From positions 1,302,001 through 1,366,000 of the forward strand of contig CP141148.1 in NCBI GenBank assembly GCA_035235625.1: a stretch of DNA of 64,000 nucleotides, in the 5' to 3' direction. A model generated the notes under the pieces. That model searched no databases and had not been told where the DNA came from. It worked only from the letters and a program-made list of their open reading frames with translations. Position 1 is the first letter of the stretch; each line of letters opens with the position of its first letter. Shown piece by piece: positions 19,490 through 57,099 of the stretch. The translations under genes were made by a program, and so were the position numbers. This stretch comes from Saururus chinensis (taxonomy: Eukaryota > Streptophyta > Magnoliopsida > Piperales > Saururaceae).

Positions 19490-21582
19490 TGTGGCGCCCC
19501 GACCCGCAAACCGACCCGGGCCGGGGGTCCAAAAACCGATGAAAACCAATGAAAACCAAACCCAGAACTAAGAGCGGCACGCTCTGAGTGCGAGAGTCTT
19601 TTCATTCCTCTACGCGCTACAGAACTTTAGCGCTCTATTGCGCGTAGGCAAGAACTGGCCTAATTATATAACTAATTCGGACCGGGCCAACGTTGCCTTG
19701 CCGTTGGTTGCCTACGTACATATCAGATAACATCCACGATGTTACTCCGATACGATCGGATCCGGACGTAGTTCTGCCTATTGGCTACTACATACAATTG
19801 GCATACCAAAAAACACATACGTAGAAAATACGTATCTCCGAATATTTAATCGGAGTTATACAGAAACACGATAAAACACCGGCAACACACATCTCACTCT
19901 TTCATAGAGACGAGCACCACACGACCACCACAACATGCCTCGCTCTATTCCAGAGCGGATGCATCACATTCACACGTCTCGCTCCAACACTGAGCCGAGA
20001 ACGAACACACACACAACCCGTCTCTCTCTAACCCAGAGTGAGACAACACACATCATGCATATAATCATAGCATAACAATATATAAACACACACACAACCC
20101 GTCTCTCTCTCACCCAGAGTGAGACGGCACACATCATGGCATATAAGCAACACATATCATAATATAACACACACAGCCCGTCTCTCTCTAACCTGCAGCG
20201 AGACGGCACACCTCATAACTAGCACATGTCATTCTATAATTAAATAGAAGGTAAGAAACTCTTACTCCCCTGATGTCTCCCGAGGTAGCGGTATTCGGGG
20301 CGCTCGTTTCTGGGCGTCCTCCTCTTCAGATCCGGAGACAGCGGACAAAGCCTCCCCTAGCCTCCATACGTTCGTCGCCTTACACCGAAAGATGACCCGA
20401 CCAACTCTCCCCTTTCCCGGAGACCACATTTTCTATGTCCGTGGGCGGCGGACAGAACCTCCCCTACTCGGGGTGTCCTTCACACGTCGTGGCCCTTCGG
20501 TGGAGAACGGAGCCTCCCCTACATCGGGCCACTTCTCTTGATCTAGCCCGGTAACGGAGGACAAAGCCTCCCCTCTCACCGGGCCATCTCTCTCTCTCTC
20601 TCTTTCTCTCTTGGGGCAGGAGGGTGGCGGACAGAGCCTCCTCTTGCCCCGGGTCGTTCCTCCCTTATAGGAGCGCCAACTCGAGCAATGGACCATGTCA
20701 TTGCGTAGATCACCCTCGAATTAGCTAGGAACGCCTCAAGAACCACTCAAATCGGACTTAAAATGAGGGAGAAATGAAGAACAGAAGTTTCTGAACGTGG
20801 GAGAGAAATAGGAAAACGTGGAAGAGAAATAGGAAAACGTGGGAGAGAATTCTCCTTTTTTTTTCTGGATGTCAAGGATGCTATTTATAGAAGAATTGGA
20901 TAGATGTGAGGTTGACACGTGTCAACCCTATCCGCTTCGTCAGCAATCCTATCCACTATCAATCCTATCCGCTTTGTCAGCAATCCTATCCACTATCAAT
21001 CCTATCCGCTTTGTCAGCAATCCTATCTACTATCGATCCTATCCGCTTTGTCAGCAGTCCTATCCACTGCATCGTTGATCTTATCCAGAAAGATATTATT
21101 TTATTCAAATAATATCTTAACCTCAAAACGCGATAACTTCCAACCTTGATGTTGGAATCGCACGCTTTTGATACCGATGGACTCGTGTCAACGAGCCCTT
21201 CGAAATAAGACCAAAACATGGGTAGGTCATCCCGCACTTTCAAAGTGGGTCCCGCCCATATGACATTTTTTCCCGAGGTCGGAATCGTGCGTTCTTAGTA
21301 CCGATAGACTCGTATCGACGGGCCCTTTGAAACTAGACCACACATGGGTAGGTTATCCCGCACTTTTCGAGCAGGCCCCGCCCATGTGGCACACTTCCCG
21401 AGGTCATAACTTTCGTTCCCGACCTCCGTTTCGTGTGTTCTTCAATCCGTTACACTCGTTACTCCGAGCTCTACCCGGATACGGGGATTTCACCTAATGA
21501 AACCCCCTGAATACTAACCTCAAATTACTAAATTACCCTTAACCCACCCAGGTTAAGCATAACCGAAAAACGGGTCGTTACA
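19490..21582 (-). mobile_element. Solo LTR (2093 bp) of the array family, minus orientation
   Basis: The ends read TGTGGCGCCCC ... GGGTCGTTACA on the plus strand, the reverse complement of the array LTRs. TSD ACAGT lies at 19485-19489 and 21583-21587. It carries the same sub-blocks (37-bp repeats, TATAAATA, GGGAGGC modules, hairpin repeats) as the array LTRs. No PBS or PPT lies next to it, so it is a solo LTR produced by LTR-LTR recombination. Confidence 0.95.
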
Positions 21583-21587
21583 ACAGT

Positions 21588-25040: not shown

Positions 25041-26454
25041 GGCATGGGATTAGGAGCCCTAATCCCAAGAGAAATTGAGTCCCAAAAACCCAATTTCGGA
25101 ATGCTAAATAATCGGGCCCTCAAAACGACTTAAACGGCCCCATTGCACGTTTAATTCGGGTAAATAGGTCCTACACAATATATTCAACTTCAGATGGTCG
25201 TTTCTCTCTCATCCGGACTCCGATTCGCGCGTTCTTGGTGGCATTTCGAAGCTCTTTCCATCTACTTTCCAATAGAATTAGTTTCAGCCCTAAATTCTAT
25301 CTAAGGAGAAAGTTATTCTAATAATAATATCAATGGGTCAAACACCATAATTTCCACGCATTTAAATTTCGAAACCCAGGAAAATTAGGGATATTACAGA
25401 TAGGCTACCGATGGACATCGGTGATCTGGTCGACACGTAGATGAGTCTATATACAACAAGTTGATTTTGGGGTAAATTCTAGCAATGAATGTTATATGAG
25501 TTAAGTTATTATTATGAGATATAATAACATGATATTATATGCATGAAATGTAATTATATGTGATGTTATCACCGATAGTATTTGGGTTATGTACCTTTGT
25601 ACGTGTGGAAATCTTTATAATAGATTGCACCTCGAGACTATTAGACAAAGGCACTTAACGACAAATGATCATTGTGTCTAAATGGTTCTTTAAGTGAGTC
25701 TTTAGCCATGTAAACATAAAGAGTTTGGTATGAAATAGGACATAGGTCTTTTGGCTCTCTTAAGATAAGAGTTATGTACAATCACTTCCTTAGTATAGGA
25801 GATGTGTTTGAATGGACTAAAGCATTAAAAGATGATTGGTCCTGCATAGTGCAATACATGAGGTTCTGATGATCATGGAAAACGAGATCTCAACCACTTG
25901 GGTCTATGAACCTCTATGAGCCTTAGCCTCATAATGTAGATGGAGCAAGCGAACTTCAGAAGTATTGAAGTTCTGTTGTGAGTAGTTCATTGTAACGACC
26001 CGTTTTTCGGTTATGCTTAACCTGGGTGGGTTAAGGGTAATTTAGTAATTTGAGGTTAGTATTCAGGGGGTTTCATTAGGTGAAATCCCCGTATCCGGGT
26101 AGAGCTCGGAGTAACGAGTGTAACGGATTGAAGAACACACGAAACGGAGGTCGGGAACAAAAGTTATGACCTCGGGAAGTGTGCCACATGGGCGGGGCCT
26201 GCTCGAAAAGTGCGGGATAACCTACCCATGTGTGGTCTAGTTTCAAAGGGCTCGTCGATACGAGTCTATCGGTACTAAGAACGCACGATTCCGACCTCGG
26301 GAAAAAATGTCATATGGGCGGGACCCACTTTGAAAGTGCGGGATGACCTACCCATGTTTTGGTCTTATTTCGAAGGGCTCGTTGACACGAGTCCATCGGT
26401 ATCAAAAGCGTGCGATTCCAACATCAAGGTTGGAAGTTATCGCGTTTTGAGGTT

Positions 26455-26483
26455 AAGATATTATTTGAATAAAATAATATCTT
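26455..26483. promoter_or_regulatory. Perfect 12-bp-stem hairpin in LTR U3
   Basis: AAGATATTATTT, a 5-nt loop GAATA, then AAATAATATCTT. It is conserved in all array LTRs and in the solo LTR. Role unknown. Confidence 0.8.
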
Positions 26484-26504
26484 TCTGGATAAGATCAACG
26501 ATGC

Positions 26505-26648
26505 AGTGGATAGGACTGCTGACAAAGCGGATAGGATCGATAGTAGATAGGATTGCTGACAAAGCGGATAGGATTGATAGTGGATAGGATTGCTGACAAA
26601 GCGGATAGGATTGATAGTGGATAGGATTGCTGACGAAGCGGATAGGGT
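26505..26648 (+). repeat. Four 37-bp tandem repeats upstream of the LTR TATA box
   Basis: The GCTGAC anchors lie at 26518, 26555, 26592 and 26629, an exact 37-bp spacing. The unit core is GATTGCTGACAAAGCGGATA followed by GGATTGATAGTG. This position just upstream of TATA is typical for LTR enhancer repeats (inference). The repeat is present in every copy of the LTR. Confidence 0.9.
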
Positions 26649-26663
26649 TGACACGTGTCAACC
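26646..26663. promoter_or_regulatory. 18-bp perfect palindrome with G-box core
   Basis: GGTTGACACGTGTCAACC lies 20 bp upstream of the TATA box. It contains CACGTG (G-box/ABRE-like) and TTGAC (W-box core) on both arms. It is conserved across the array and in the solo LTR. Confidence 0.75.
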
Positions 26664-26683
26664 TCACATCTATCCAATTCTTC

Positions 26684-26691
26684 TATAAATA
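26684..26691 (+). promoter_or_regulatory. LTR TATA box
   Basis: TTCTATAAATAGCATCC, a canonical TATAAATA. Transcription would start near 26715, giving a U3 of about 0.72 kb. Equivalent sites exist in every array LTR and, on minus, in the solo LTR near 20884. Confidence 0.75.
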
Positions 26692-26929
26692 GCATCCTTG
26701 ACATCCAGAAAAAAAAAGGAGAATTCTCTCCCACGTTTTCCTATTTCTCTTCCACGTTTTCTTATTTCTCTCCCACGTTCAGAAACTTCTGTTCTTCATT
26801 TCTCCCTCATTTTAAGTCCGATTTGAGTGGTTCTTGAGGCGTTCCTAGCTAATTCGAGGGTGATCTACGCAATGACATGGTCCATTGCTCGAGTTGGCGC
26901 TCCTATAAGGGAGGAACGACCCGGGGCAA

Positions 26930-27245
26930 GAGGAGGCTCTGTCCGCCACCCTCCTGCCCCAAGAGAGAAAGAGAGAGAGAGAGAGATGGCCCGGTGAGAG
27001 GGGAGGCTTTGTCCTCCGTTACCGGGCTAGATCAAGAGAAGTGGCCCGATGTAGGGGAGGCTCCGTTTTCCACCGAAGGGCCACGACGTGTGAAGGACAC
27101 CCCGAGTAGGGGAGGTTCTGTCCGCCGCCCACGGACATAGAAAATGTGGTCTCCGGGAAAGGGGAGAGTTGGTCGGGTCATCTTTCGGTGTAAGGCGACG
27201 AACGTATGGAGGCTAGGGGAGGCTTTGTCCGCTGTCTCCGGATCT
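26930..27245 (+). repeat. Five spaced GAGGCT(C/T)(T/C)GT(C/T)C modules in the LTR
   Basis: The word GGGGAGGCT..GTCC followed by a CCGCC or CCG..CCGGG stretch recurs five times at about 60-70-bp spacing (near 26930, 26999, 27055, 27109 and 27217). A (GA)n tract lies near 26967. This lies downstream of the inferred transcription start. Confidence 0.7.
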
Positions 27246-27363
27246 GAAGAGGAGGACGCCCAGAAACGAGCGCCCCGAATACCGCTACCTCGGGAGACAT
27301 CAGGGGAGTAAGAGTTTCTTACCTTCTATTTAATTATAGAATGACATGTGCTAGTTATGAGGT

Positions 27364-27690
27364 GTGCCGTCTCGCTCTGGGTTAGAGAGAGACGGGCTGT
27401 GTGTGTTATATTATGATATGTGTTGCTTATATGCCATGATGTGTGCCGTCTCACTCTGGGTGAGAGAGAGACGGGTTGTGTGTGTGTTTATATATTGTTA
27501 TGCTATGATTATATGCATGATGTGTGTTGTCTCACTCTGGGTTAGAGAGAGACGGGTTGTGTGTGTGTTCGTTCTCGGCTCAGTGTTGGAGCGAGACGTG
27601 TGAATGTGATGCATCCGCTCTGGAATAGAGCGAGGCATGTTGTGGTGGTCGTGTGGTGCTCGTCTCTATGAAAGAGTGAGATGTGTGTTG
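27364..27690 (+). repeat. Hairpin-forming ~80-bp repeats in the LTR
   Basis: Three units begin GCCGTCTCGCTCTGGGT, GCCGTCTCACTCTGGGT and GTTGTCTCACTCTGGGT (27366, 27444, 27526). Each is followed by AGAGAGAGACGGG, which can pair back to CCGTCTC..CTCT. Weaker relatives follow (GCTCTGGAATAGAGC near 27621; CTCGTCTCTATGAAAGAGTGAG near 27659). Confidence 0.8.
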
Positions 27691-28082
27691 CCGGTGTTTT
27701 ATCAGGTTTTTGTATAACTCCGATTAAATATTCGGAGATACGTATTTTCTACGTATGTGTTTTTGGTATGCCAGTTGTATGTAGTAGCCAATAGGCAGAA
27801 CTACGTCCGGATCCGATCGTATCGGAGTAACATCGTGGATGTTATCCGATATGTACGTAGGCAACCAACGGCAAGGCAACGTTGGCCCGGTCCGAATTAG
27901 TTATATAATTAGGCCAGTTCTTGCCTACGCGCAATAGAGCGCTAAAGTTCTGTAGCGCGTAGAGGAATGAAAAAGACTCTCGCACTCATAGCGTGCCGCT
28001 CTTAGTTCTGGGTTTGGTTTTCATTGGTTTTCATCGGTTTGTGGACCCCCGGCCTGGGTCGGTTTGCGGGTCGGGCGCCACA

Positions 28083-29078
28083 AATGGTATCGGAGCTCTG
28101 CTCGACATTGCGAGAGGAAACATATTTTTAAAACAAATATATATACTCCGATTGTGATTTGTGTGTTTACGCACGTGTGTCATCGGCTTTAAGACAAGGT
28201 CCGATATAAAAAAAATTTCCACATGTGTGGCATCAGATTTTATACGAATTCTGATTTTGAATTAAATTCAATCGGAAATATGTGTTTTAAATACGTACTT
28301 AGTATAACTTTTTATACATGATTTGACATGATTAAGCTTATGTGACTGATTTATGGAAGACATGCTATGTATTGAACTGTTTTAGCATGAATGTTGTTGT
28401 GTTTGAACGATGTGATGATTAATTCATGGGCTTAAGAACCCAGAATAATCATAGAGTGATGATGCCCGCCGAGAAAAATAATCGGCAAGTGGCGCGCGCA
28501 GGGTAGAGCATCGTGGGAAAGCTCTGTCCCTAAGTGGCCCTCGTTTGCCCCATGAGCGCCGAGGGTAGGCCGTTGGGTATCGCGGCTTCTGTGATTGATT
28601 GTACATGTGATGATTATTTCATAGGCTTTCGAACATGGAATAATCATAGAGTGATGATGCCCGCCGAGAAAAATAAATCGGCAAGTGGCGCGCACGGGGT
28701 AGAGCATCGTGGGAAAGCTTTGTCCCTAAGTGGCCCTCGTTTGCCCCATGAGCGCCGAGGGCAGGCTGTAGGGTGTCGCGGCTTCTGGATTTCAAGAATT
28801 TGTGGATTTGACATGTTTTGACTCGAGTGTGAGTCTGTGAATGTGATTTGATTTGGAATTGTGCCTGATATGCTTTTATGAGATTTAAGCTGATTTTCTC
28901 TCGGGTGTTTCTAAAAAGAAAAGCGTCCGATTTTAATTCAAATTTTTGTGAAATGCTTGATTCGATTAAATTATCGGAATGTTATTTGTGTTTGCTACTT
29001 AATGAGATCGGATTGTGTTGTGAGGTAAGATTTCTTCGGGCGAATTGCGAGGACGCAATTCATTTAAGGGGGGAAGAA
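28083..29078 (+). mobile_element. Array internal domain 1 (996 bp), non-coding
   Basis: PBS at 28085-28096 (TGGTATCGGAGC) after a two-base AA spacer; PPT at 29066-29078. A ~195-bp block is duplicated in tandem (GATGATGCCCGCCGAGAAAA at about 28459 and 28654), each copy carrying GGTAGAGCATCGTGGGAAAG and GTTTGCCCCATGAGCGCCGAGG. Open frames are all under 100 codons and conflict between strands. It has the CACGGGGTAG variant also seen in domain 2. Confidence 0.93.
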
Positions 29079-31166
29079 TGTAACGACCCGTTTTTCGGTT
29101 ATGCTTAACCTGGGTGGGTTAAGGGTAATTTAGTAATTTGAGGTTAGTATTCAGGGGTTTCATTAGGTGAAATCCCCGTATCCGGTAGAGCTCGGAGTAA
29201 CGAGTGTAACGGATTGAAGAACACACGAAACGGAGGTCGGGAACGAAAGTTATGACCTCGGGAAGTGTGCCACATGGGCGGGGCCTGCTCGAAAAGTGCG
29301 GGATAACCTACCCATGTGTGGTCTAGTTTCAAAGGGCTCGTCGATACGAGTCTATCGGTACTAAGAACGCACGATTCCGACCTCGGGAAAAAATGTCATA
29401 TGGGCGGGACCCACTTTGAAAGTGCGGGATGACCTACCCATGTTTTGGTCTTATTTCGAAGGGCTCGTTGACACGAGTCCATCGGTATCAAAAGCGTGCG
29501 ATTCCAACATCAAGGTTGGAAGTTATCGCGTTTTGAGGTTAAGATATTATTTGAATAAAATAATATCTTTCTTGATAAGATCAACGATGCAGTGGATAAG
29601 ACTGCTGACAAAGCGGATAGGATCGATAGTAGATAGGATTGCTGACAAAGCGGATAGGATTGATAGTGGATAGGATTGCTGACAAAGCGGATAGGATTGA
29701 TAGTGGATAGGATTGCTGACGAAGCGGATAGGGTTGACACGTGTCAACCTCACATCTATCCAATTCTTCTATAAATAGCATCCTTGACATCCAGAAAAAA
29801 AAAGGAGAATTCTCTCCCACGTTTTCCTATTTCTCTTCCACGTTTTCCTATTTCTCTCCCACGTTCAGAAACTTCTGTTCTTCATTTCTCCCTCATTTTA
29901 AGTCCGATTTGAGTGGTTCTTGAGGCGTTCCTAGCTAATTCGAGGGTGATCTACGCAATGACATGGTCCATTGCTCGAGTTGGCGCTCCTATAAGGGAGG
30001 AACGACCCGGGGCAAGAGGAGGCTCTGTCCGCCACCCTCCTGCCCCAAGAGAGAAAGAGAGAGAGAGAGAGATGGCCCGGTGAGAGGGGAGGCTTTGTCC
30101 TCCGTTACCGGGCTAGATCAAGAGAAGTGGCCCGATGTAGGGGAGGCTCCGTTCTCCACCGAAGGGCCACGACGTGTGAAGGACACCCCGAGTAGGGGAG
30201 GTTCTGTCCGCCGCCCACGGACATAGAAAATGTGGTCTCCGGGAAAGGGGAGAGTTGGTCGGGTCATCTTTCGGTGTAAGGCGACGAACGTATGGAGGCT
30301 AGGGGAGGCTTTGTCCGCTGTCTCCGGATGCGAAGAGGAGGACGCCCAGAAACGAGCGCCCCGAATACCGCTACCTCGGGAGACATCAGGGGAGTAAGAG
30401 TTTCTTACCTTCTATTTAATTATAGAATGACATGTGCTAGTTATGAGGTGTGCCGTCTCGCTCTGGGTTAGAGAGAGACGGGCTGTGTGTGTTATATTAT
30501 GATATGTGTTGCTTATATGCCATGATGTGTGCCGTCTCACTCTGGGTGAGAGAGAGACGGGTTGTGTGTGTGTTTATATATTGTTATGCTATGATTATAT
30601 GCATGATGTGTGTTGTCTCACTCGGGTTAGAGAGAGACGGGTTGTGTGTGTGTTCGTTCTCGGCTCAGTGTTGGAGCGAGACGTGTGAATGTGATGCATC
30701 CGCTCTGGAATAGAGCGAGGCATGTTGTGGTGGTCGTGTGGTGCTCGTCTCTATGAAAGAGTGAGATGTGTGTTGCCGGTGTTTTATCAGGTTTTTGTAT
30801 AACTCCGATTAAATATTCGGAGATACGTATTTTCTACGTATGTGTTTTTGGTATGCCAGTTGTATGTAGTAGCCAATAGGCGTAACTACGTCCGGATCCG
30901 ATCGTATCGGAGTAACATCGTGGATGTTATCCGATATGTACGTAGGCAACCAACGGCAAGGCAACGTTGGCCCGGTCCGAATTAGTTATATAATTAGGCC
31001 AGTTCTTGCCTACGCGCAATAGAGCGCTAAAGTTCTGTAGCGCGTAGAGGAATGAAAAGACTCTCGCACTCATAGCGTGCCGCTCTTAGTTCTGGGTTTG
31101 GTTTTCATTGGTTTTCATCGGTTTTTGGACCCCCGGCCTGGGTCGGTTTGCGGGTCGGGCGTCACA
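29079..31166 (+). repeat. Array LTR 2 (2088 bp)
   Basis: It carries CTTTCTTGATAAG, shared only with LTR 5, and GCCAGTTGTATG, shared with LTRs 1 and 4. It ends GGGCGTCACA rather than GGGCGCCACA. Confidence 0.93.
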
Positions 31167-32161
31167 AATGGTATCGGACCTCTGCTCTGACTGCGAGAGG
31201 AAACATATTTTTAAAACAAATATATATACTCCGATTGTGATTTGTGTGTTTCTGCACGTGTGTCATCGGCTTTAAGACAAGGTCCGATATAAAAAAAAAT
31301 TTCCACATGTGTGGCATCAGATTTTATACGAATTCTGATTTTGAATTAAATTCAATCGGAAATATGTGTTTTAAATACGTACTTAGTATAACTTTTTATA
31401 CATGATTTGACATGATTAAGCTTATGTGACTGATTTATGGAAGACATGCTATGTATTGAACTGTTTTAGCATGAATGTTGTTGTGTTTGAACGATGTGAT
31501 GATTAATTCATGGGCTTAAGAACCCAGAATAATCATAGAGTGATGATGCCCGCCGAGAAAAATAATCGGCAAGTGGCGCGCGCAGGGTAGAGCATCGTGG
31601 GAAAGCTCGTCCCTAAGTGGCCCTCGTTTGCCCCATGAGCGCCGAGGGTAGGCCGTTGGGTATCGCGGCTTCTGTGATTGATTGTACATGTGATGATTAT
31701 TTCATAGGCTTTCGAACATGGAATAATCATAGAGTGATGATGCCCGCCGAGAAAAATAAATCGGCAAGTGGCGCGCACGGGGTAGAGCATCGTGGGAAAG
31801 CTTTGTCCCTAAGTGGCCCTCGTTTGCCCCATGAGCGCCGAGGGCAGGCTGTAGGGTGTCGCGGCTTCACGGATTTCAAGAATTTGTGGATTTGACATGT
31901 TTTGACTCGAGTGTGAGTCTGTGAATGTGATTTGATTTGGAATTGTGCCTGATATGCTTTTATGAGATTTAAGCTGATTTTCTCTGCGGTGTTTCTAAAA
32001 AGAAAAGCGTCCGATTTTAATTCAAATTTTTGTGAAATGCTTGATTCGATTAAATTATCGGAATGTTATTTGTGTTTGCTACTTAATGAGATCGGATTGT
32101 GTTGTGAGGTAAGATTTCTTCGGGCGGGTGCGAGGACGCAATTCATTTAAGGGGGGAAGAA
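31167..32161 (+). mobile_element. Array internal domain 2 (995 bp)
   Basis: Same layout as domain 1. It has CGGGCGGGTGCGAGGACG near 32127, a variant shared only with domain 5; other copies have GGGCGAATTGCGAGG. PPT directly before 32162. Confidence 0.92.
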
Positions 32162-34251
32162 TGTAACGACCCGTTTTTCGGTTATGCTTAACCTGGGTGG
32201 GTTAAGGGTAATTTAGTAATTTGAGGTTAGTATTCAGGGGTTTCATTAGGTGAAATCCCCGTATCCGGTAGAGCTCGGAGTAACGAGTGTAACGGATTGA
32301 AGAACACACGAAACGGAGGTCGGGAACGAAAGTTATGACCTCGGGAAGTGTGCCACATGGGCGGGGCCTGCTCGAAAAGTGCGGGATAACCTACCCATGT
32401 GTGGTCTAGTTTCAAAGGGCTCGTCGATACGAGTCTATCGGTACTAAGAACGCACGATTCCGACCTCGGGAAAAAATGTCATATGGGCGGGACCCACTTT
32501 GAAAGTGCGGGATGACCTACCCATGTTTTGGTCTTATTTCGAAGGGCTCGTTGACACGAGTCCATCGGTATCAAAAGCGTGCGATTCCAACATCAAGGTT
32601 GGAAGTTATCGCGTTTTGAGGTTAAGATATTATTTGAATAAAATAATATCTTTCTGGATAAGATCAACGATGCAGTGGATAAGACTGCTGACAAAGCGGA
32701 TAGGATCGATAGTAGATAGGATTGCTGACAAAGCGGATAGGATTGATAGTGGATAGGATTGCTGACAAAGCGGATAGGATTGATAGTGGATAGGATTGCT
32801 GACGAAGCGGATAGGGTTGACACGTGTCAACCTCACATCTATCCAATTCTTCTATAAATAGCATCCTTGACATCCAGAAAAAAAAAGGAGAATTCTCTCC
32901 CACGTTTTCCTATTTCTCTTCCACGTTTTCCTATTTCTCTCCCACGTTCAGAAACTTCTGTTCTTCATTTCTCCCTCATTTTAAGTCCGATTTGAGTGGT
33001 TCTTGAGGCGTTCCTAGCTAATTCGAGGGTGATCTACGCAATGACATGGTCCATTGCTCGAGTTGGCGCTCCTATAAGGGAGGAACGACCCGGGGCAAGA
33101 GGAGGCTCTGTCCGCCACCCTCCTGCCCCAAGAGAGAAAGAGAGAGAGAGAGAGATGGCCCGGTGAGAGGGGAGGCTTTGTCCTCCGTTACCGGGCTAGA
33201 TCAAGAGAAGTGGCCCGATGTAGGGGAGGCTCCGTTCTCCACCGAAGGGCCACGACGTGTGAAGGACACCCCGAGTAGGGGAGGTTCTGTCCGCCGCCCA
33301 CGGACATAGAAAATGTGGTCTCCGGGAAAGGGGAGAGTTGGTCGGGTCATCTTTCGGTGTAAGGCGACGAACGTATGGAGGCTAGGGGAGGCTTTGTCCG
33401 CTGTCTCCGGATCAGAAGAGGAGGACGCCCGAAACGAGCGCCCGAATACCGCTACCTCGGGAGACATCAGGGGAGTAAGAGTTTCTTACCTTCTATTTAA
33501 TTATAGAATGACATGTGCTAGTTATGAGGTGTGCCGTCTCGCTCTGGGTTAGAGAGAGACGGGCTGTGTGTGTTATATTATGATATGTGTTGCTTATATG
33601 CCATGATGTGTGCCGTCTCACTCTGGGTGAGAGAGAGACGGGTTGTGTGTGTGTTTATATATTGTTATGCTATGATTATATGCATGATGTGTGTTGTCTC
33701 ACTACTGGGTTAGAGAGAGACGGGTTGTGTGTGTGTTCGTTCTCGGCTCAGTGTTGGAGCGAGACGTGTGAATGTGATGCATCCGCTCTGGAATAGAGCG
33801 AGGCATGTTGTGGTGGTCGTGTGGTGCTCGTCTCTATGAAAGAGTGAGATGTGTGTTGCCGGTGTTTTATCAGGTTTTTGTATAACTCCGATTAAATATT
33901 CGGAGATACGTATTTTCTACGTATGTGTTTTTTGGTATGCCAATTGTATGTAGTAGCCAATAGGCAGAACTACGTCCGGATCCGATCGTATCGGAGTAAC
34001 ATCGTGGATGTTATCCGATATTTACGTAGGCAACCAACGGCAAGGCAACGTTGGCCCGGTCCGAATTAGTTATATAATTAGGCCAGTTCTTGCCTACGCG
34101 CAATAGAGCGCTAAAGTTCTGTAGCGCGTAGAGGAATGAAAAGACTCTCGCACTCATAGCGTGCCGCTCTTAGTTCTGGGTTTGGTTTTCATTGGTTTTC
34201 ATCGGTTTTTGGACCCCCGGCCTGGGTCGGTTTGCGGGTCGGGGCGCCACA
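32162..34251 (+). repeat. Array LTR 3 (2090 bp)
   Basis: It has GCCAATTGTATG near 33941, shared with LTRs 5 and 6 and the solo LTR. It has a 1-bp loss in CGCCCGAATACCG relative to other copies. Confidence 0.92.
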
Positions 34252-35245
34252 AATGGTATCGGAGCTCTGCTCTGACTGCGAGAGGAAACATATTTTTAAA
34301 ACAAATATATATACTCCGATTGTGATTTGTGTGTTTCTGCACGTGTGTCATCGGCTTTAAGACAAGGTCCGATATAAAAAAAATTTCCACATGTGTGGCA
34401 TCAGATTTTATACGAATTCTGATTTTGAATTAAATTCAATCGGAAATATGTGTTTTAAATACGTACTTAGTATAACTTTTTATACATGATTTGACATGAT
34501 TAAGCTTATGTGACTGATTTATGGAAGACATGCTATGTATTGAACTGTTTTAGCATGAATGTTGTTGTGTTTGAACGATGTGATGATTAATTCATGGGCT
34601 TAAGAACCCAGAATAATCATAGAGTGATGATGCCCGCCGAGAAAAATAATCGGCAAGTGGCGCGCGCAGGTAGAGCATCGTGGGAAAGCTCTGTCCCTAA
34701 GTGGCCCTCGTTTGCCCCATGAGCGCCGAGGGTAGGCCGTTGGGTATCGCGGCTTCTGTGATTGATTGTACATGTGATGATTATTTCATAGGCTTTCGAA
34801 CATGGAATAATCATAGAGTGATGATGCCCGCCGAGAAAAATAAATCGGCAAGTGGCGCGCACAGGGTAGAGCATCGTGGGAAAGCTTTGTCCCTAAGTGG
34901 CCCTCGTTTGCCCCATGAGCGCCGAGGGTAGGCTGTAGGGTGTCGCGGCTTCTGGATTTCAAGAATTTGTGGATTTGACATGTTTTGACTCGAGTGTGAG
35001 TCTGTGAATGTGATTTGATTTGGAATTGTGCCTGATATGCTTTTATGAGATTTAAGCTGATTTTCTCTGCAGTGTTTCTAAAAAGAAAAGCGTCCGATTT
35101 TAATTCAAATTTTTGTGAAATGCTTGATTCGATTAAATTATCGGAATGTTATTTGTGTTTGCTACTTAATGAGATCGGATTGTGTTGTGAGGTAAGATTT
35201 CTTCGGGCGAATTGCGAGGACGCAATTCATTTAAGGGGGGAAGAA
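34252..35245 (+). mobile_element. Array internal domain 3 (994 bp)
   Basis: PBS, 195-bp duplication and PPT as in domain 1. It has the GCGCACAGGGTAG variant shared with domains 4 and 5. Confidence 0.92.
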
Positions 35246-37334
35246 TGTAACGACCCGTTTTTCGGTTATGCTTAACCTGGGTGGGTTAAGGGTAATTTAG
35301 TAATTTGAGGTTAGTATTCAGGGGGTTTCATTAGGTGAAATCCCCGTATCCGGGTAGAGCTCGGAGTAACGAGTGTAACGGATTGAAGAACACACGAAAC
35401 GGAGGTCGGGAACGAAAGTTATGACCTCGGGAAGTGTGCCACATGGGCGGGGCCTGCTCGAAAAGTGCGGGATAACCTACCCATGTGTGGTCTAGTTTCA
35501 AAGGGCTCGTCGATACGAGTCTATCGGTACTAAGAACGCACGATTCCGACCTCGGGAAAAAATGTCATATGGGCGGGACCCACTTTGAAAGTGCGGGATG
35601 ACCTACCCATGTTTTGGTCTTATTTCGAAGGGCTCGTTGACACGAGTCCATCGGTATCAGCGTGCGATTCCAACATCAAGGTTGGAAGTTATCGCGTTTT
35701 GAGGTTAAGATATTATTTGAATAAAATAATATCTTTCTGGATAAGATCAACGATGCAGTGGATAAGACTGCTGACAAAGCGGATAGGATCGATAGTAGAT
35801 ATGATTGCTGACAAAGCGGATAGGATTGATAGTGGATAGGATTGCTGACAAAGCGGATAGGATTGATAGTGGATAGGATTGCTGACGAAGCGGATAGGGT
35901 TGACACGTGTCAACCTCACATCTATCCAATTCTTCTATAAATAGCATCCTTGACATCCAGAAAAAAAAAGGAGAATTCTCTCCCACGTTTTCCTATTTCT
36001 CTTCCACGTTTTCCTATTTCTCTCCCACGTTCAGAAACTTCTGTTCTTCATTTCTCCCTCATTTTAAGTCCGATTTGAGTGGTTCTTGAGGCGTTCCTAG
36101 CTAATTCGAGGGTGATCTACACAATGACATGGTCCATTGCTCGAGTTGGCGCTCCTATAAGGGAGGAACGACCCGGGGCAAGAGGAGGCTCTGTCCGCCA
36201 CCCTCCTGCCCCAAGAGAGAAAGAGAGAGAGAGAGAGATGGCCCGGTGAGAGGGGAGGCTTTGTCCTCCGTTACCGGGCTAGATCAAGAGAAGTGGCCCG
36301 ATGTAGGGGAGGCTCCGTTCTCCACCGAAGGGCCACGACGTGTGAAGGACACCCCGAGTAGGGGAGGTTCTGTCCGCCGCCCACGGACATAGAAAATGTG
36401 GTCTCCGGGAAAGGGGAGAGTTGGTCGGGTCATCTTTCGGTGTAAGGCGACGAACGTATGGAGGCTAGGGGAGGCTTTGTCCGCTGTCTCCGGATCTGAA
36501 GAGGAGGACGCCCAGAAACGAGCGCCCCGAATACCGCTACCTCGGGAGACATCAGGGGAGTAAGAGTTTCTTACCTTCTATTTAATTATAGAATGACATG
36601 TGCTAGTTATGAGGTGTGCCGTCTCGCTCTGGGTTAGAGAGAGACGGGCTGTGTGTGTTATATTATGATATGTGTTGCTTATATGCCATGATGTGTGCCG
36701 TCTCACTCTGGGTGAGAGAGAGACGGGTTGTGTGTGTGTTTATATATTGTTATGCTATGATTATATGCATGATGTGTGTTGTCTCACTGTGGGTTAGAGA
36801 GAGACGGGTTGTGTGTGTGTTCGTTCTCGGCTCAGTGTTGGAGCGAGACGTGTGAATGTGATGCATCCGCTCTGGAATAGAGCGAGGCATGTTGTGGTGG
36901 TCGTGTGGTGCTCGTCTCTATGAAAGAGTGAGATGTGTGTTGCCGGTGTTTTATCAGGTTTTTGTATAACTCCGATTAAATATTCGGAGATACGTATTTT
37001 CTACGTATGTGTTTTTGGTATGCCAGTTGTATGTAGTAGCCAATAGGCAGAACTACGTCCGGATCCGATCGTATCGGAGTAACATCGTGGATGTTATCCG
37101 ATATGTACGTAGGCAACCAACGGCAAGGCAACGTTGGCCCGGTCCGAATTAGTTATATAATTAGGCCAGTTCTTGCCTACGCGCAATAGAGCGCTAAAGT
37201 TCTGTAGCGCGTAGAGGAATGAAAAGACTCTCGCACTCATAGCGTGCCGCTCTTAGTTCTGGGTTTGGTTTTCATTGGTTTTCATCGGTTTTTGGACCCC
37301 CGGCCTGGGTCGGTTTGCGGGTCGGGGCGCCACA
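35246..37334 (+). repeat. Array LTR 4 (2089 bp)
   Basis: It shares GTAGATATGATTGCTG and GATCTACACAATGAC uniquely with LTR 6. It lacks AAA in the ATCAAAAGCGTGCG stretch near 35658 (reads ATCAGCGTGCG). Confidence 0.92.
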
Positions 37335-38330
37335 AATGGTATCGGAGCTCTGCTCTGACTGCGAGAGGAAACATATTTTTAAAACAAATATATATACTCC
37401 GATTGTGATTTGTGTGTTTCTGCACGTGTGTCATCGGCTTTAAGACAAGGTCCGATATAAAAAAAAATTTCCACATGTGTGGCATCAGATTTTATACGAA
37501 TTCTGATTTTGAATTAAATTCAATCGGAAATATGTGTTTTAAATACGTACTTAGTATAACTTTTTATACATGATTTGACATGATTAAGCTTATGTGACTG
37601 ATTTATGGAAGACATGCTATGTATTGAACTGTTTTAGCATGAATGTTGTTGTGTTTGAACGATGTGATGATTAATTCATGGGCTTAAGAACCCAGAATAA
37701 TCATAGAGTGATGATGCCCGCCGAGAAAAATAATCGGCAAGTGGCGCGCGCAGGGTAGAGCATCGTGGGAAAGCTCTGTCCCTAAGTGGCCCTCGTTTGC
37801 CCCATGAGCGCCGAGGGTAGGCCGTTGGGTATCGCGGCTTCTGTGATTGATTGTACATGTGATGATTATTTCATAGGCTTTCGAACATGGAATAATCATA
37901 GAGTGATGATGCCCGCCGAGAAAAATAAATCGGCAAGTGGCGCGCACAGGGTAGAGCATCGTGGGAAAGCTTTGTCCCTAAGTGGCCCTCGTTTGCCCCA
38001 TGAGCGCCGAGGGCAGGCTGTAGGGTGTCGCGGCTTCTGGATTTCAAGAATTTGTGGATTTGACATGTTTTGACTCGAGTGTGAGTCTGTGAATGTGATT
38101 TGATTTGGAATTGTGCCTGATATGCTTTTATGAGATTTAAGCTGATTTTCTCTGCAGTGTTTCTAAAAAGAAAAGCGTCCGATTTTAATTCAAATTTTTG
38201 TGAAATGCTTGATTCGATTAAATTATCGGAATGTTATTTGTGTTTGCTACTTAATGAGATCGGATTGTGTTGTGAGGTAAGATTTCTTCGGGCGAATTGC
38301 GAGGACGCAATTCATTTAAGGGGGGAAGAA
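37335..38330 (+). mobile_element. Array internal domain 4 (996 bp)
   Basis: Same layout as domain 1, with PBS just after 37334 and PPT ending 38330. It has the GCGCACAGGGTAG variant. Confidence 0.92.
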
Positions 38331-40423
38331 TGTAACGACCCGTTTTTCGGTTATGCTTAACCTGGGTGGGTTAAGGGTAATTTAGTAATTTGAGGTTAGT
38401 ATTCAGGGGGTTTCATTAGGTGAAATCCCCGTATCCGGGTAGAGCTCGGAGTAACGAGTGTAACGGATTGAAGAACACACGAAACGGAGGTCGGGAACGA
38501 AAGTTATGACCTCGGGAAGTGTGCCACATGGGCGGGGCCTGCTCGAAAAGTGCGGGATAACCTACCCATGTGTGGTCTAGTTTCAAAGGGCTCGTCGATA
38601 CGAGTCTATCGGTACTAAGAACGCACGATTCCGACCTCGGGAAAAAATGTCATATGGGCGGGACCCACTTTGAAAGTGCGGGATGACCTACCCATGTTTT
38701 GGTCTTATTTCGAAGGGCTCGTTGACACGAGTCCATCGGTATCAAAAGCGTGCGATTCCAACATCAAGGTTGGAAGTTATCGCGTTTTGAGGTTAAGATA
38801 TTATTTGAATAAAATAATATCTTTCTTGATAAGATCAACGATGCAGTGGATAAGACTGCTGACAAAGCGGATAGGATCGATAGTAGATAGGATTGCTGAC
38901 AAAGCGGATAGGATTGATAGTGGATAGGATTGCTGACAAAGCGGATAGGATTGATAGTGGATAGGATTGCTGACGAAGCGGATAGGGTTGACACGTGTCA
39001 ACCTCACATCTATCCAATTCTTCTATAAATAGCATCCTTGACATCCAGAAAAAAAAAGGAGAATTCTCTCCCACGTTTTCCTATTTCTCTTCCACGTTTT
39101 CCTATTTCTCTCCCACGTTCAGAAACTTCTGTTCTTCATTTCTCCCTCATTTTAAGTCCGATTTGAGTGGTTCTTGAGGCGTTCCTAGCTAATTCGAGGG
39201 TGATCTACGCAATGACATGGTCCATTGCTCGAGTTGGCGCTCCTATAAGGGAGGAACGACCCGGGGCAAGAGGAGGCTCTGTCCGCCACCCTCCTGCCCC
39301 AAGAGAGAAAGAGAGAGAGAGAGAGATGGCCCGGTGAGAGGGGAGGCTTTGTCCTCTGTTACCGGGCTAGATCAAGAGAAGTGGCCCGATGTAGGGGAGG
39401 CTCCGTTCTCCACCGAAGGGCCACGACGTGTGAAGGACACCCCGAGTAGGGGAGGTTCTGTCCGCCGCCCACGGACATAGAAAATGTGGTCTCCGGGAAA
39501 GGGGAGAGTTGGTCGGGTCATCTTTCGGTGTAAGGCGACGAACGTATGGAGGCTAGGGGAGGCTTTGTCCGCTGTCTCCGGATCTGAAGAGGAGGACGCC
39601 CAGAAACGAGCGCCCCGAATACCGCTACCTCGGGAGACATCAGGGGAGTAAGAGTTTCTTACCTTCTATTTAATTATAGAATGACATGTGCTAGTTATGA
39701 GGTGTGCCGTCTCGCTCTGTGTTAGAGAGAGACGGGCTGTGTGTGTTATATTATGATATGTGTTGCTTATATGCCATGATGTGTGCCGTCTCACTCTGGG
39801 TGAGAGAGAGACGGGTTGTGTGTGTGTTTATATATTGTTATGCTATGATTATATGCATGATGTGTGTTGTCTCACTCTGGGTTAGAGAGAGACGGGTTGT
39901 GTGTGTGTTCGTTCTCGGCTCAGTGTTGGAGCGAGACGTGTGAATGTGATGCATCCGCTCTGGAATAGAGCGAGGCATGTTGTGGTGGTCGTGTGGTGCT
40001 CGTCTCTATGAAAGAGTGAGATGTGTGTTGCCGGTGTTTTATCAGGTTTTTGTATAACTCCGATTAAATATTCGGAGATACGTATTTTCTACGTATGTGT
40101 TTTTTGGTATGCCAATTGTATGTAGTAGCCAATAGGCAGAACTACGTCCGGATCCGATCGTATCGGAGTAACATCGTGGATGTTATCCGATATGTACGTA
40201 GGCAACCAACGGCAAGGCAACGTTGGCCCAGTCCGAATTAGTTATATAATTAGGCCAGTTCTTGCCTACGCGCAATAGAGCGCTAAAGTTTCGAAGCGCG
40301 TAGAGGAATGAAAAGACTCTCGCACTCATAGCGTGCCGCTCTTAGTTCTGGGTTTGGTTTTCATTGGTTTTCATCGGTTTTTGGACCCCCGGCCTGGGTC
40401 GGTTTGCGGGTCGGGGCGCCACA
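38331..40423 (+). repeat. Array LTR 5 (2093 bp)
   Basis: It shares CTTTCTTGATAAG with LTR 2 and GCCAATTGTATG with LTRs 3 and 6. Near 40288 it reads AAAGTTTCGAAGCGCG where other copies have AAAGTTCTGTAGCGCG. Confidence 0.92.
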
Positions 40424-41417
40424 AATGGTATCGGAGCTCTGCTCTGACTGCGAGAGGAAACATATTTTTAAAACAAATATATATACTCCGATTGTGATTT
40501 GTGTGTTTCTGCACGTGTGTCATCGGCTTTAAGACAAGGTCCGATATAAAAAAAAATTTCCACATGTGTGGCATCAGATTTTATACGAATTCTGATTTTG
40601 AATTAAATTCAATCGGAAATATGTGTTTTAAATACGTACTTAGTATAACTTTTTATACATGATTTGACATGATTAAGCTTATGTGACTGATTTATGGAAG
40701 ACATGCTATGTATTGAACTGTTTTAGCATGAATGTTGTTGTGTTTGAACGATGTGATGATTAATTCATGGGCTTAAGAACCCAGAATAATCATAGAGTGA
40801 TGATGCCCGCCGAGAAAAATAATCGGCAAGTGGCGCGCGCAGGGTAGAGCATCGTGGGAAAGCTCTGTCCCTAAGTGGCCCTCGTTTGCCCCATGAGCGC
40901 CGAGGGTAGGCCGTTGGGTATCGCGGCTTCTGTGATTGATTGTACATGTGATGATTATTTCATAGGCTTTCGAACATGGAATAATCATAGAGTGATGATG
41001 CCCGCCGAGAAAAATAAATCGGCAAGTGGCGCGCACAGGGTAGAGCATCGTGGGAAAGCTTTGTCCCTAAGTGGCCCTCGTTTGCCCCATGAGCGCCGAG
41101 GGTAGGCTGTAGGGTGTCGCGGCTTCTGGATTTCAAGAATTTGTGGATTTGACATGTTTTGACTCGAGTGTGAGTCTGTGAATGTGATTTGATTTGGAAT
41201 TGTGCCTGATATGCTTTTATGAGATTTAAGCTGATTTTCTCTGCAGTGTTTCTAAAAAGAAAAGCGTCCGATTTTAATTCAAATTTTTGTGAAATGCTTG
41301 ATTCGATTAAATTATCGGAATGTTATTTGTGTTTGCTACTTAATGAGATCGGATTGTGTTGTGAGGTAAGATTTCTTGGGCGGGTGCGAGGACGCAATTC
41401 ATTTAAGGGGGGAAGAA
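40424..41417 (+). mobile_element. Array internal domain 5 (994 bp)
   Basis: Same layout. It has TGGGCGGGTGCGAGGACG near 41378, like domain 2, and CACAGGGTAG like domains 3 and 4, so it is a mosaic of variants. Confidence 0.92.
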
Positions 41418-43506
41418 TGTAACGACCCGTTTTTCGGTTATGCTTAACCTGGGTGGGTTAAGGGTAATTTAGTAATTTGAGGTTAGTATTCAGGGGTTTC
41501 ATTAGGTGAAATCCCGTATCCGGGTAGAGCTCGGAGTAACGAGTGTAACGGATTGAAGAACACACGAAACGGAGGTCGGGAACGAAAGTTATGACCTCGG
41601 GAAGTGTGCCACATGGGCGGGGCCTGCTCGAAAAGTGCGGGATAACCTACCCATGTGTGGTCTAGTTTCAAAGGGCTCGTCGATACGAGTCTATCGGTAC
41701 TAAGAACGCACGATTCCGACCTCGGGAAAAAATGTCATATGGGCGGGACCCACTTTGAAAGTGCGGGATGACCTACCCATGTTTTGGTCTTATTTCGAAG
41801 GGCTCGTTGACACGAGTCCATCGGTATCAAAAGCGTGCGATTCCAACATCAAGGTTGGAAGTTATCGCGTTTTGAGGTTAAGATATTATTTGAATAAAAT
41901 AATATCTTTCTGGATAAGATCAACGATGCAGTGGATAAGACTGCTGACAAAGCGGATAGGATCGATAGTAGATATGATTGCTGACAAAGCGGATAGGATT
42001 GATAGTGGATAGGATTGCTGACAAAGCGGATAGGATTGATAGTGGATAGGATTGCTGACGAAGCGGATAGGGTTGACACGTGTCAACCTCACATCTATCC
42101 AATTCTTCTATAAATAGCATCCTTGACATCCAGAAAAAAAGGAGAATTCTCTCCCACGTTTTCCTATTTCTCTTCCACGTTTTCCTATTTCTCTCCCACG
42201 TTCAGAAACTTCTGTTCTTCATTTCTCCCTCATTTTAAGTCCGATTTGAGTGGTTCTTGAGGCGTTCCTAGCTAATTCGAGGGTGATCTACACAATGACA
42301 TGGTCCATTGCTCGAGTTGGCGCTCCTATAAGGGAGGAACGACCCGGGGCAAGAGGAGGCTCTGTCCGCCACCCTCCTGCCCCAAGAGAGAAAGAGAGAG
42401 AGAGAGAGATGGCCCGGTGAGAGGGGAGGCTTTGTCCTCCGTTACCGGGCTAGATCAAGAGAAGTGGCCCGATGTAGGGGAGGCTCCGTTCTCCACCGAA
42501 GGGCCACGACGTGTGAAGGACACCCCGAGTAGGGGAGGTTCTGTCCGCCGCCCACGGACATAGAAAATGTGGTCTCCGGGAAAGGGGAGAGTTGGTCGGG
42601 TCATCTTTCGGTGTAAGGCGACGAACGTATGGAGGCTAGGGGAGGCTTTGTCCGCTGTCTCCGGATACGAAGAGGAGGACGCCCGAAAACGAGCGCCCCG
42701 AATACCGCTACCTCGGGAGACATCAGGGGAGTAAGAGTTTCTTACCTTCTATTTAATTATAGAATGACATGTGCTAGTTATGAGGTGTGGCGTCTCGCTC
42801 TGGGTTAGAGAGAGACGGGCTGTGTGTGTTATATTATGATATGTGTTGCTTATATGCCATGATGTGTGCCGTCTCACTGTGGGTGAGAGAGAGACGGGTT
42901 GTGTGTGTGTTTATATATTGTTATGCTATGATTATATGCATGATGTGTGTTGTCTCACTCTGGGTTAGAGAGAGACGGGTTGTGTGTGTGTTCGTTCTCG
43001 GCTCAGTGTTGGAGCGAGACGTGTGAATGTGATGCATCCGCTCTGGAATAGAGCGAGGCATGTTGTGGTGGTCGTGTGGTGCTCGTCTCTATGAAAGAGT
43101 GAGATGTGTGTTGCCGGTGTTTTATCAGGTTTTTGTATAACTCCGATTAAATATTCGGAGATACGTATTTTCTACGTATGTGTTTTTTGGTATGCCAATT
43201 GTATGTAGTAGCCAATAGGCAGAACTACGTCCGGATCCGATCGTATCGGAGTAACATCGTGGATGTTATCCGATATGTACGTAGGCAACCAACGGCAAGG
43301 CAACGTTGGCCCGGTCCGAATTAGTTATATAATTAGGCCAGTTCTTGCCTACGCGCAATAGAGCGCTAAAGTTCTGTAGCGCGTAGAGGAATGAAAAGAC
43401 TCTCGCACTCATAGCGTGCCGCTCTTAGTTCTGGGTTTGGTTTTCATTGGTTTTCATCGGTTTTTGGACCCCCGGCCCGGGTCGGTTTGCGGGTCGGGGC
43501 GCCACA
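41418..43506 (+). repeat. Array LTR 6 (2089 bp), 3' boundary
   Basis: It ends GGGGCGCCACA directly before TSD TTCAT (43507-43511). It shares GATATGATTGCTG and CTACACAATGAC with LTR 4 and GCCAATTG with LTRs 3 and 5. No PBS follows it. Confidence 0.93.
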
Positions 43507-43511
43507 TTCAT

Positions 43512-48194: not shown

Positions 48195-48736
48195 TATATT
48201 TTAAGAATCAAATGTTACACTATACTGAATTGTGATATACTTGACTAAAATTATTCCTCAGTGGGTTTTCCATAGTAAAAGCAATAGACGTATCACAATT
48301 CGCATTGCACTAAAATGGGGTTGATAGTGATCAATCAGGTTGGGGCATAGAGCCCTTTCTTAATTCGTTTCAACCCAAGCCTGACATACGTAATTGCAAT
48401 AAGATTGGACACAGCTTTCAATCGTTTTCAGTATTTTCAAGGAAAATGCAGAAAGCAGACAACTTTAACAGCACAGCCTGAAGTGGAGACCGTAGGAAGC
48501 AACCATGCAGTTTCCTTCGTACCAAATGCCAACTTAACCTCCCTCCGTCTTCCACACGACCAAACCTCCTCACCTTCCCTGCAATTTCTCATCTTTTCCA
48601 TTCACACAAGGCATCAACTACACTACAAATTCTCCTCCAATGCCCCTAGTTGCACCTCCCCAGTGCCCCCCCCCACATTTGTATAAGTATATATACATGA
48701 GACTGCCTTGCAAAGCGTAGTAGTAGATTATCACCA
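48195..48736 (+). promoter_or_regulatory. CML gene upstream region with TATA box at 48682-48695
   Basis: TATAAGTATATATA at 48682-48695 lies about 42 bp upstream of the start codon, so the 5' UTR would be very short (about 10-20 nt). A C-rich run (CCCCCCCCC) sits at 48666-48674. The Stowaway-like MITE ends about 540 bp upstream of the gene. Confidence 0.6.
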
Positions 48737-49312
48737 ATGGTTCCGAAGCTATTCTCCAGCAAAAGCTTCAAGCTGACTCTCCCCGCCCGCCGCCGTCAAA
48801 AGCAGGGCTCATCGAGCCCGCCGGTGACGCCTCCCTCGCCGGCTCAGCCGGGATCCTCTAGAACCGGGCAGTATTTAGAAGTGTTTAGACACTTTGATAG
48901 TGATGAAGATGGAAAGATCTCCAGCCAGGAGCTGAGACACTTTTTAGCGTCCAAGGGGGAGCACATGCCACTCAGCCTTGCCGACGCGATCATCGCTGAC
49001 TTCGACTCGGACGGAGACGGGTCGCTTGAGTACAATGACTTTGTGAGGCTGTTGAGGGAGACGGGGGGTGGGGATAGTGGCGCCGTGTGCCATGAAGAGC
49101 CAGGTAGGGAGGAGGAGGACATCAAGGGTGCGTTCGAGATGTACGAGGAAGAGAAGGGCTCCGGCTGCATCACACCAAAGTCGTTGAAGAGGGCACTCAA
49201 CTGGCTGGGGGATGATCGATCGGATGCGGAGTGCGAGGCCATGATCCGGAGCTATGACCTTGATGGCAATGGGGTCATTGATTTCCACGAGTTCAGGCTG
49301 ATGATGGCTTGA
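48737..49312 (+). CDS. Calmodulin-like EF-hand protein, CML41-like, intronless
   Basis: A calcium sensor of the plant CML family, 191 aa, single exon. Residues 1-45 are basic, Ser- and Pro-rich (SSKSFKLTLPARRRQ), like the N-terminal extension of CML41. EF1 loop D54-E65 (DSDEDGKISSQE) is canonical. EF2 loop D90-D101 (DSDGDGSLEYND) ends in Asp instead of Glu. EF3 (about 137-148, EEEKGSGCITPK) lacks the first Asp and the last Glu and should not bind calcium. EF4 loop D174-E185 (DLDGNGVIDFHE) is canonical. The stretch FEMYEEEKGSGCITPK, the ECEAMI motif and DFHEFR are characteristic of the CML41 branch. Arabidopsis CML41 acts in plasmodesmal closure and defence (family knowledge); transfer of that role is inference. 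AATAAA lies at 49451. Codon use is strongly GC3-rich compared with the flanks. Confidence 0.93.
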   Translation: MVPKLFSSKSFKLTLPARRRQKQGSSSPPVTPPSPAQPGSSRTGQYLEVFRHFDSDEDGKISSQELRHFLASKGEHMPLSLADAIIADFDSDGDGSLEYNDFVRLLRETGGGDSGAVCHEEPGREEEDIKGAFEMYEEEKGSGCITPKSLKRALNWLGDDRSDAECEAMIRSYDLDGNGVIDFHEFRLMMA

Positions 49313-55060: not shown

Positions 55061-55288
55061 CGACCACTGAAGCTCATTACAACTAATAAGCTCCAGCATC
55101 GAAATGGAAAAGAATGCCACTGGGGCAACACCTTAACCTCCGGGGAGTGACTAGACGCCATGGACTTTTCCGAAGGTAAGGCACACCAATGCTCATGGGG
55201 CACTGGATCAAACAGGTAAGAGTAGATCCATGATACTACTTACCTGAGCGCGCAAACATAAACACCCACACATAAGGGGTCATACAGT

Positions 55289-55424
55289 TGCCCACCATAA
55301 TGGGTCTTATAGTGCCATAGAATCGCCCACCATAATGGGTCTTATAGTGCCATAGAATCGCCCACCATAATGGGTCTTATAGTGCCAGAGAATTGCCCAC
55401 CATAATGGGTCTTATAGTGCCATT
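55289..55424. repeat. Four 35-bp tandem repeats
   Basis: The unit begins CGCCCACCATAATGGGTC and continues TTATAGTGCCATAGAAT. Copies start at 55289, 55324, 55359 and 55394. Each contains the short inverted repeat CCCACCATAATGGG. Confidence 0.92.
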
Positions 55425-55498
55425 GCCACTCTTGGGCAGAAAACATACAGTGCCACTTGGGCAGAAACGTACAGTGCCACTCTTGGGCGAAAACATAC

Positions 55499-55740
55499 AA
55501 CGCTCTCAACAGAGCATCAAACGTCTGGGCTTACACAGCACACAGACCAAATCAGAAACGTACATCGCTCTTAGCAGAGCATCAGACGTCTGGGCTTCAT
55601 ACAGCACGCAGACAAAGTCAGAAACGTACATCGCTCTCAACAGAGCATCAAATGTCTGGGCTTATACAGCACGCAGACCAAATCAGAAACGTCGCTCTCA
55701 GCAAAGCATCAGACGTCTGGTGCTCTACATAGCACACAGA
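55499..55740. repeat. Four ~61-bp tandem repeats
   Basis: The unit is (AT)CGCTCTCAACAGAGCATC followed by A.ACGTCTGGGCTTATACAGC and ACGCAGACCAAATCAGAAACGT. Three diverged units of the same repeat occur inverted at about 63590-63765 in the second copy. Confidence 0.9.
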
Positions 55741-56880: not shown

Positions 56881-57099
56881 CCATACATAGCATACTGACA
56901 TATTTGCTAGCCATCGCCAGCGCATACATACTCCACATCCATAAAACATGCATACATCTCATGCATATCAATCATACCATACAATCATGCTTACACGCAC
57001 ATCATGCAATCGGATCGTTACTTAACATCCAAGCATGGAATCATACAATCCTAGCATGCTGCTACTCATTCAAAGCATGCTTCATGAATTTACGAGTTC

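Follow-up and report, generated by a model that had tools for sequence, protein, structure and literature searches.

Does a tandem array of retrotransposons grow in place from one insertion, or does it arrive ready-made? The question is raised by a 64,000-bp stretch of the Saururus chinensis genome, hereafter the window (contig CP141148.1, C9:1302001-1366000 of the 516,460,831-bp, 11-contig assembly GCA_035235625.1), in which six long terminal repeats (LTRs) and five interiors of one LTR retrotransposon alternate at window positions 25991-43506. Tandem LTR retrotransposons that share inner LTRs within one target-site duplication (TSD) are described as common and polymorphic in plants, among them rice, Arabidopsis, almond and cotton, in passages of Morales-Diaz et al. 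2025 (PMC11899658), where the choice between a ready-made origin and growth in place is left open. Our results favour one insertion followed by unequal exchange between misaligned LTRs, with a probability of about 0.7.

One target-site duplication encloses six LTRs and five interiors

In the assembly sequence, self-comparison and boundary alignment resolve a tandem block of six LTRs, each 2,088-2,093 bp long, with an interior of 994-996 bp between each pair of neighbours, five in all. The repeats are direct (25991-40423 against 29079-43506, 99.2% identity in the window self-comparison), and the self-comparison offsets place the LTR starts at 25991, 29079, 32162, 35246, 38331 and 41418, with periods of 3088, 3083, 3084, 3085 and 3087 bp. 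On the plus strand the order is LTR1, the outer 5′ LTR (25991-28082), interior 1 (28083-29078), LTR2 (29079-31166), interior 2 (31167-32161), LTR3 (32162-34251), interior 3 (34252-35245), LTR4 (35246-37334), interior 4 (37335-38330), LTR5 (38331-40423), interior 5 (40424-41417) and LTR6, the outer 3′ LTR (41418-43506). The array begins and ends with an LTR, and each inner LTR is the end of one unit and the start of the next: LTR2 is common to units 1 and 2, LTR3 to units 2 and 3, LTR4 to units 3 and 4, and LTR5 to units 4 and 5.

All six LTRs open with TGTAACGACC and have TG...CA ends. The five interiors all terminate in AAGGGGGGAAGAA, a polypurine tract with the LTR directly after it, and the 23-base junction between interior and 3′ LTR is identical at five of five array joints. 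LTR1-5 end in CACA and are followed at the interior start by AATGGTATCGGA(G/C)C, a motif that resembles a primer-binding site of the initiator-methionine type. LTR6 also ends in CACA and is followed by TTCAT, the right copy (43507-43511) of a single 5-bp TSD whose left copy lies at 25986-25990 and which encloses the whole block. At the inner LTR junctions no further TSD or TSD remnant was found, which rules out nested independent insertions. Self-comparison and boundary check thus confirm what a first-pass annotation of the bare sequence had described, six LTRs and five interiors with periods of 3083-3088 bp inside one TTCAT duplication, and the distinct TSDs at each LTR junction that it had named as a refutation are absent inside the block. 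One TSD and shared inner LTRs free of TSD remnants support exchange in place.

The units differ, LTR pairs by 6-16 substitutions and interiors by 1-14; the array is therefore not one unit copied by the assembler. An assembly artefact of another kind, with a wrong unit number or a collapsed or expanded repeat, is highly improbable in our view. Many of the private differences consist of runs of adjacent changed bases or of homopolymer indels, and the private substitutions are transversion-rich (12 transitions and 8 transversions in the LTRs, 4 and 8 in the interiors), as an artefact might leave them. However, the units show linked combinations of shared and private variants, one clean TSD surrounds the block, and two more tandems of relatives occur in the same assembly. 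The private multi-base differences lie at LTR columns 1255-1256, 1810-1811 and 1963-1966 and at interior columns 21-25, 86-87 and 821-822. Some private differences may be consensus errors or multi-base mutations; they were not used in the history test described below.

Inner LTRs look like hybrids in the direction that unequal exchange predicts

The two LTRs of an LTR retrotransposon are identical at the moment of insertion. If misaligned LTRs later recombined between sister chromatids or homologues, with breakpoints inside the LTRs, each exchange would duplicate whole units of half-LTR, interior and half-LTR, and would leave a hybrid LTR with its left part from the downstream LTR and its right part from the upstream one. 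We compared the array LTRs with 18 outgroup rows, namely a solo LTR of the same subfamily in the window and 17 other family LTRs; the LTRs of loci L024-L031 lie outside this alignment. At column 524, LTR1 retains G, as do 15 of the 18 outgroup rows, and LTR2-6 carry A. At column 2068 it is LTR6 that retains the outgroup base, C (18 of 18 rows), and LTR1-5 carry T. Judged by these two sites, every one of the four inner LTRs resembles LTR6 on its left and LTR1 on its right, the direction that unequal exchange predicts. A concatemer joined from two sources predicts the reverse, with inner LTRs LTR1-like on the left and LTR6-like on the right.

We then took a unit to run from the right half of one LTR through the interior into the left half of the following LTR. 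Two kinds of unit can be told apart. The P units, 3 and 5, carry 1772T/1787A in the upstream LTR, T at interior 680 (the family state) and 561T/880A in the downstream LTR. The Q units, 1, 2 and 4, have a gap at 1772, 1787G and C at interior 680; G at interior positions 614 and 823 is in addition common to units 1 and 2. From left to right the units read Q Q P Q P. The inner LTR4, which stands between P and Q units, is LTR6-like on its left (561, 880) and LTR1-like on its right (1772, 1787), and so fits the product of a two-unit duplication.

Sharing of this kind exceeds what independent mutation of the units would give. Substitutions are shared at 7 sites (4 LTR, 3 interior), against 0.16 expected under a star phylogeny, a count reached in 0 of 20,000 trials. 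The excess weakens if mutation is restricted to hotspots, with P = 0.0003 for 600 such sites in the LTR and 300 in the interior, and P = 0.015 for 300 and 150. When the solo LTR is added as a seventh row, 13 four-gamete conflicts arise among 7 informative sites, or 7 conflicts when the three-allele column 1256 is left out. Simultaneous insertion of identical units, for which private variants alone are predicted, is disfavoured by these shared variants, and a concatemer of identical units likewise predicts only private ones. The derived LTR alleles 498T, 561T and 2068T of the array are absent from all 18 other aligned LTRs, and its interior alleles 614G, 680C and 823G from all 7, 7 and 8 other copies, respectively, that have a base there.

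The outer LTRs bear on a further possibility, that a read-through transcript of a one-LTR circle or of a donor array was reverse transcribed and integrated, the array having moved as an array. Reverse transcription makes the two outer LTRs identical, but 15 substitutions separate LTR1 from LTR6, a distance that ranks second among the 15 LTR pairs, and the family state is kept at 524 by LTR1 only and at 2068 by LTR6 only. This distance disfavours the reverse transcription of a tandem transcript. Moreover, the seven LTRs listed for the 99% subfamily all lie in the window, and no donor array of that subfamily appears among the matches listed (best 40 candidates). We give this origin only a slim chance, although it is suggested in part of PMC11899658 and concatenated Cassandra transcripts are reported in part of PMC7215508.

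Alternatively, new complementary DNAs (cDNAs) could have recombined by homology into the resident element, independently of integrase, with units added singly. This would also give one TSD and breakpoints within LTRs, and such recombination is reported in yeast according to the text on it in PMC11899658. Incoming alleles would then be expected elsewhere in the family, but most derived alleles are array-specific among the aligned copies, which makes this route very unlikely too; with a cDNA made from the resident element itself, the outcome would be hard to distinguish from unequal exchange.

A proposed stepwise growth history

We drew up 32 duplication histories and allowed seven classes of breakpoint, which gave 60,368 combinations to test against six LTR and four interior sites, the interior patch 956-964 counting as one site. 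LTR indel columns 77, 108, 1772 and 2086 and interior indel column 125 were dropped as error-prone homopolymer lengths, and column 1256 because it has three alleles beside another variable base; column 1772 was considered only jointly with 1787, outside the history test. In the best fit, 8 of the 10 shared sites need no more than a single change, and the 12 combinations that reach this fit all follow one history, 1->2->4->5 units. When each site was dealt anew as a control, 8 or more sites were reached in 1 of 400 trials.

We then propose a model for the formation of the array. A non-autonomous LTR retrotransposon would have inserted once, creating the 5-bp TSD, as the structure indicates. Three unequal exchanges between its LTRs would have carried it from one unit to two, four and five, together with about one short conversion tract.

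Several observations weigh against this model. When entire inner LTRs and interiors are put in random order, 8 or more sites are reached in 32 of 400 trials; set against the 1 in 400 above, linkage is therefore informative and unit order alone is not significant. With the six LTR sites alone, four different histories each fit five sites with one change. When only LTR substitutions are counted, with 300 hotspots, the shared-site excess has P = 0.08. The dropping of rows before the history test may have helped the fit. The two sites that do not fit are LTR3, which lacks 498T, and a derived patch near column 960 shared by interiors 2 and 5. These misfits lie within ~540 bp of each other and flank the interior 2/LTR3 joint; one conversion tract would explain both, but as an added step. 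The 1772T/1787A state found in the solo LTR and in LTR3, 5 and 6 would likewise call for either a reversion or a short conversion. As to direction, the argument depends mainly on two polarised sites, and at one of them the array allele, 524A, is also found in 3 of the 18 other LTRs; 880A is found in 1 of the 18. The absence of an allele elsewhere is weak evidence, the nearest relatives outside the window being only 95% alike in sequence.

The LTR sites also leave a thin margin over a heterogeneous concatemer, with one unexplained site for unequal exchange against two extra changes. In that scenario several cDNAs or circles would have recombined in one cell before integration and been inserted whole by integrase, the unit differences coming from the source copies. 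The single TSD is then explained at once, and five free cDNA haplotypes with free joints cost only those two changes across the six shared LTR sites. For arrays of terminal-repeat retrotransposons in miniature (TRIMs) and for Cassandra, the insertion of tandems already formed, or of cDNA joined end to end, has been proposed, as set out in portions of PMC11899658 and PMC7215508. However, several distinct sources are needed, carrying alleles seen in 0 of 18 LTRs and 0 of 7-8 interiors, and the direction observed at 524 and 2068 is opposite to the two-source prediction. We therefore regard the concatemer as unlikely. The first-pass annotation had left the choice between unequal crossing-over and a pre-formed concatemer undecided; these are the right candidates, which the literature leaves open, and the variant pattern favours unequal exchange.

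The array element is non-coding

The TG...CA ends, the primer-binding-site-like motif and the polypurine tract are those of an LTR retrotransposon. Interior 1 has no stop-to-stop open reading frame (ORF) longer than 120 aa, and the 120-aa one is antisense; its equivalent in interior 4 matches no Pfam family at E 0.1. With no ORF above 120 aa and no Pfam match, the array element is, as far as its sequence tells, a non-autonomous LTR retrotransposon without the reverse transcriptase by which membership of a lineage such as Gypsy/Tekay is judged. An interior of 994-996 bp whose longest ORF has 120 aa is not a gag-pol coding interior. The element is not a TRIM either: TRIM LTRs are very short, about 100-250 bp, and the elements small in total, and here the LTR measures ~2,090 bp and the interior ~995 bp. 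A copy in viral contigs was rejected after 0 exact matches there to a 31-base LTR pattern.

Each interior contains two tandem copies of a 196-bp segment, ~90-91% identical to each other (28400-28791 in the first interior). Both copies are also present in the interiors of two relatives elsewhere in the genome, L015 and L017; the 196-bp duplication is therefore older than the array.

Solo LTRs and short tandems recur in the genome

To place the array in its family, we searched the genome with the LTR, the interior and the interior/3′ LTR junction. The LTR searches score the best 40 candidates, and their counts are lower bounds. Among the matches listed, seven LTRs reach 99%, the six of the array and the solo LTR in the window; the next full-length LTRs listed are at 95%, on C8 and C6. 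Around the best other LTR matches we read 15 loci: 12 solo LTRs, two LTR-interior-LTR elements (L015, L017) and one broken inverted piece (L022). An exact 5-bp TSD flanks 8 of the 12 solo LTRs (L009-L013, L016, L018, L019). With solo LTRs at 12 of 15 loci, LTR-LTR recombination is therefore common in the family of the array, and these solo LTRs would be the deletion-type outcome of recombination like that proposed here. The interior search added the single elements L025 and L026, and L027 with an LTR found on one side only. A truncated interior-LTR-interior remnant of the same family, L024 (C1:22978500-22988000), is a second, decayed tandem.

In four ordinary relatives the two LTRs of an element differ by 0.8-1.3%, against 0.3-0.8% (over ~2,090 positions) for pairs within the array. 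By this yardstick the array appears young, and exchange between units would also lower its figures.

The exact 23-base junction occurs 96 times in the genome, and 436 times with up to 2 mismatches; the 96 were counted by eye in a 100-row list with exact matches first, which leaves most of the 436 unlisted. Grouped within 10 kb, the exact junctions form 90 loci: 87 single, two double, and the array with five, so that 3 of 90 loci hold more than one. The double on C2 (L028-L029, 8.71-8.73 Mb) repeats a 5.27-kb unit at 99.2% and has two interiors and three LTRs, the first of which runs off the end of the retrieved sequence. The double on C4 (L030-L031, 10.71-10.72 Mb) repeats a 5.75-kb unit at ~99.2%; its first interior matched only partly, and no LTR was seen before it. 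Both tandems are formed by related, longer elements than that of the array. The search for other LTR-interior arrays, which the first-pass annotation had called for, thus yielded two doubles and one truncated remnant. Short tandems recur in this genome, and the array is the longest in the exact-junction census.

A macrosatellite is a long array of tens of units or more. The array has five units only and does not belong to that class, and the other multi-junction loci are short; the suggestion that a transposon is here turning into a macrosatellite was overstated for five units at one locus.

Relation to known tandem arrays

The array resembles the tandems described in the relevant text of PMC11899658 in its alternating LTRs and interiors, shared inner LTRs, an LTR at both ends, one TSD and high identity. 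The two rice loci detailed there have three LTRs and two interiors, compared with six and five here, and the 28 rice cases selected in it contain protein-domain-coding regions, unlike the interior of the array. Variable unit number between individuals is reported for some tandem loci, not all. The yeast and kangaroo-centromere tandems it cites share LTRs as the array does, but belong to other hosts and element families.

Small non-coding elements also form arrays. Maize TRIM arrays such as L3I2 and L5I4 are described in part of PMC4717578, and cases of the maize TRIM Wukong with six and seven LTRs are said in the text of PMC4528315 to suggest unequal crossing over; the Wukong LTR there is 230 bp and the interior 72 bp, compared with ~2.09 kb and 1.0 kb here. 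Cassandra arrays hold at least 12 LTR copies, with both unequal crossing over and concatenated cDNA discussed in the portion of PMC7215508 that treats them. Like the array element, Cassandra is non-autonomous and its LTRs alternate with interiors, but its LTR holds a 5S RNA sequence (same source, in part), whereas the 64-kb window has no Rfam match at the gathering threshold.

This type of structure is thus already published, and the array is less exceptional than the first-pass annotation held and not a new kind of element. What it adds is a record of how it may have grown. Its LTRs are longer than in the TRIM cases, the interior is non-coding and the history is unusually readable. Shared variants, a near-identical solo LTR and family outgroups together allow a stepwise history to be proposed and models to be ranked, and the same approach to the ready-made versus in-place question is applicable to other LTR arrays.

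A neighbouring solo LTR and the surroundings of the array

The solo LTR of the array subfamily lies on the minus strand at 19490-21582, with its own TSD, ACAGT, at 19485-19489 and 21583-21587. It is 98.9-99.2% identical to the six array LTRs and is their nearest outgroup. Solo LTR and array stand 4.4 kb apart in opposite orientation with separate TSDs, and chance proximity looks unlikely. The solo LTR has 1772T/1787A in common with LTR3, 5 and 6, and LTR1, 2 and 4 have the usual family state. Because of this shared patch, and because among the matches listed for the 516-Mb genome (best 40 candidates) only the array and the solo LTR fall in the 99% subfamily, one could speculate that the two form one local exchange network, in which conversion may homogenise an older pair of insertions and make both look young. 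We consider this doubtful.

Elsewhere in the window, an imperfect long inverted repeat (55217-59133 and 60402-64000, pieces 76-92% identical) reaches the window end and is possibly a large foldback or terminal-inverted-repeat element. Near the array lie MatE transporter exons and an EF-hand gene (7702-9658 and 48701-49312); the best matches of the MatE exon among solved structures are chains that bear a name in use for plant proteins, 'Protein DETOXIFICATION'.

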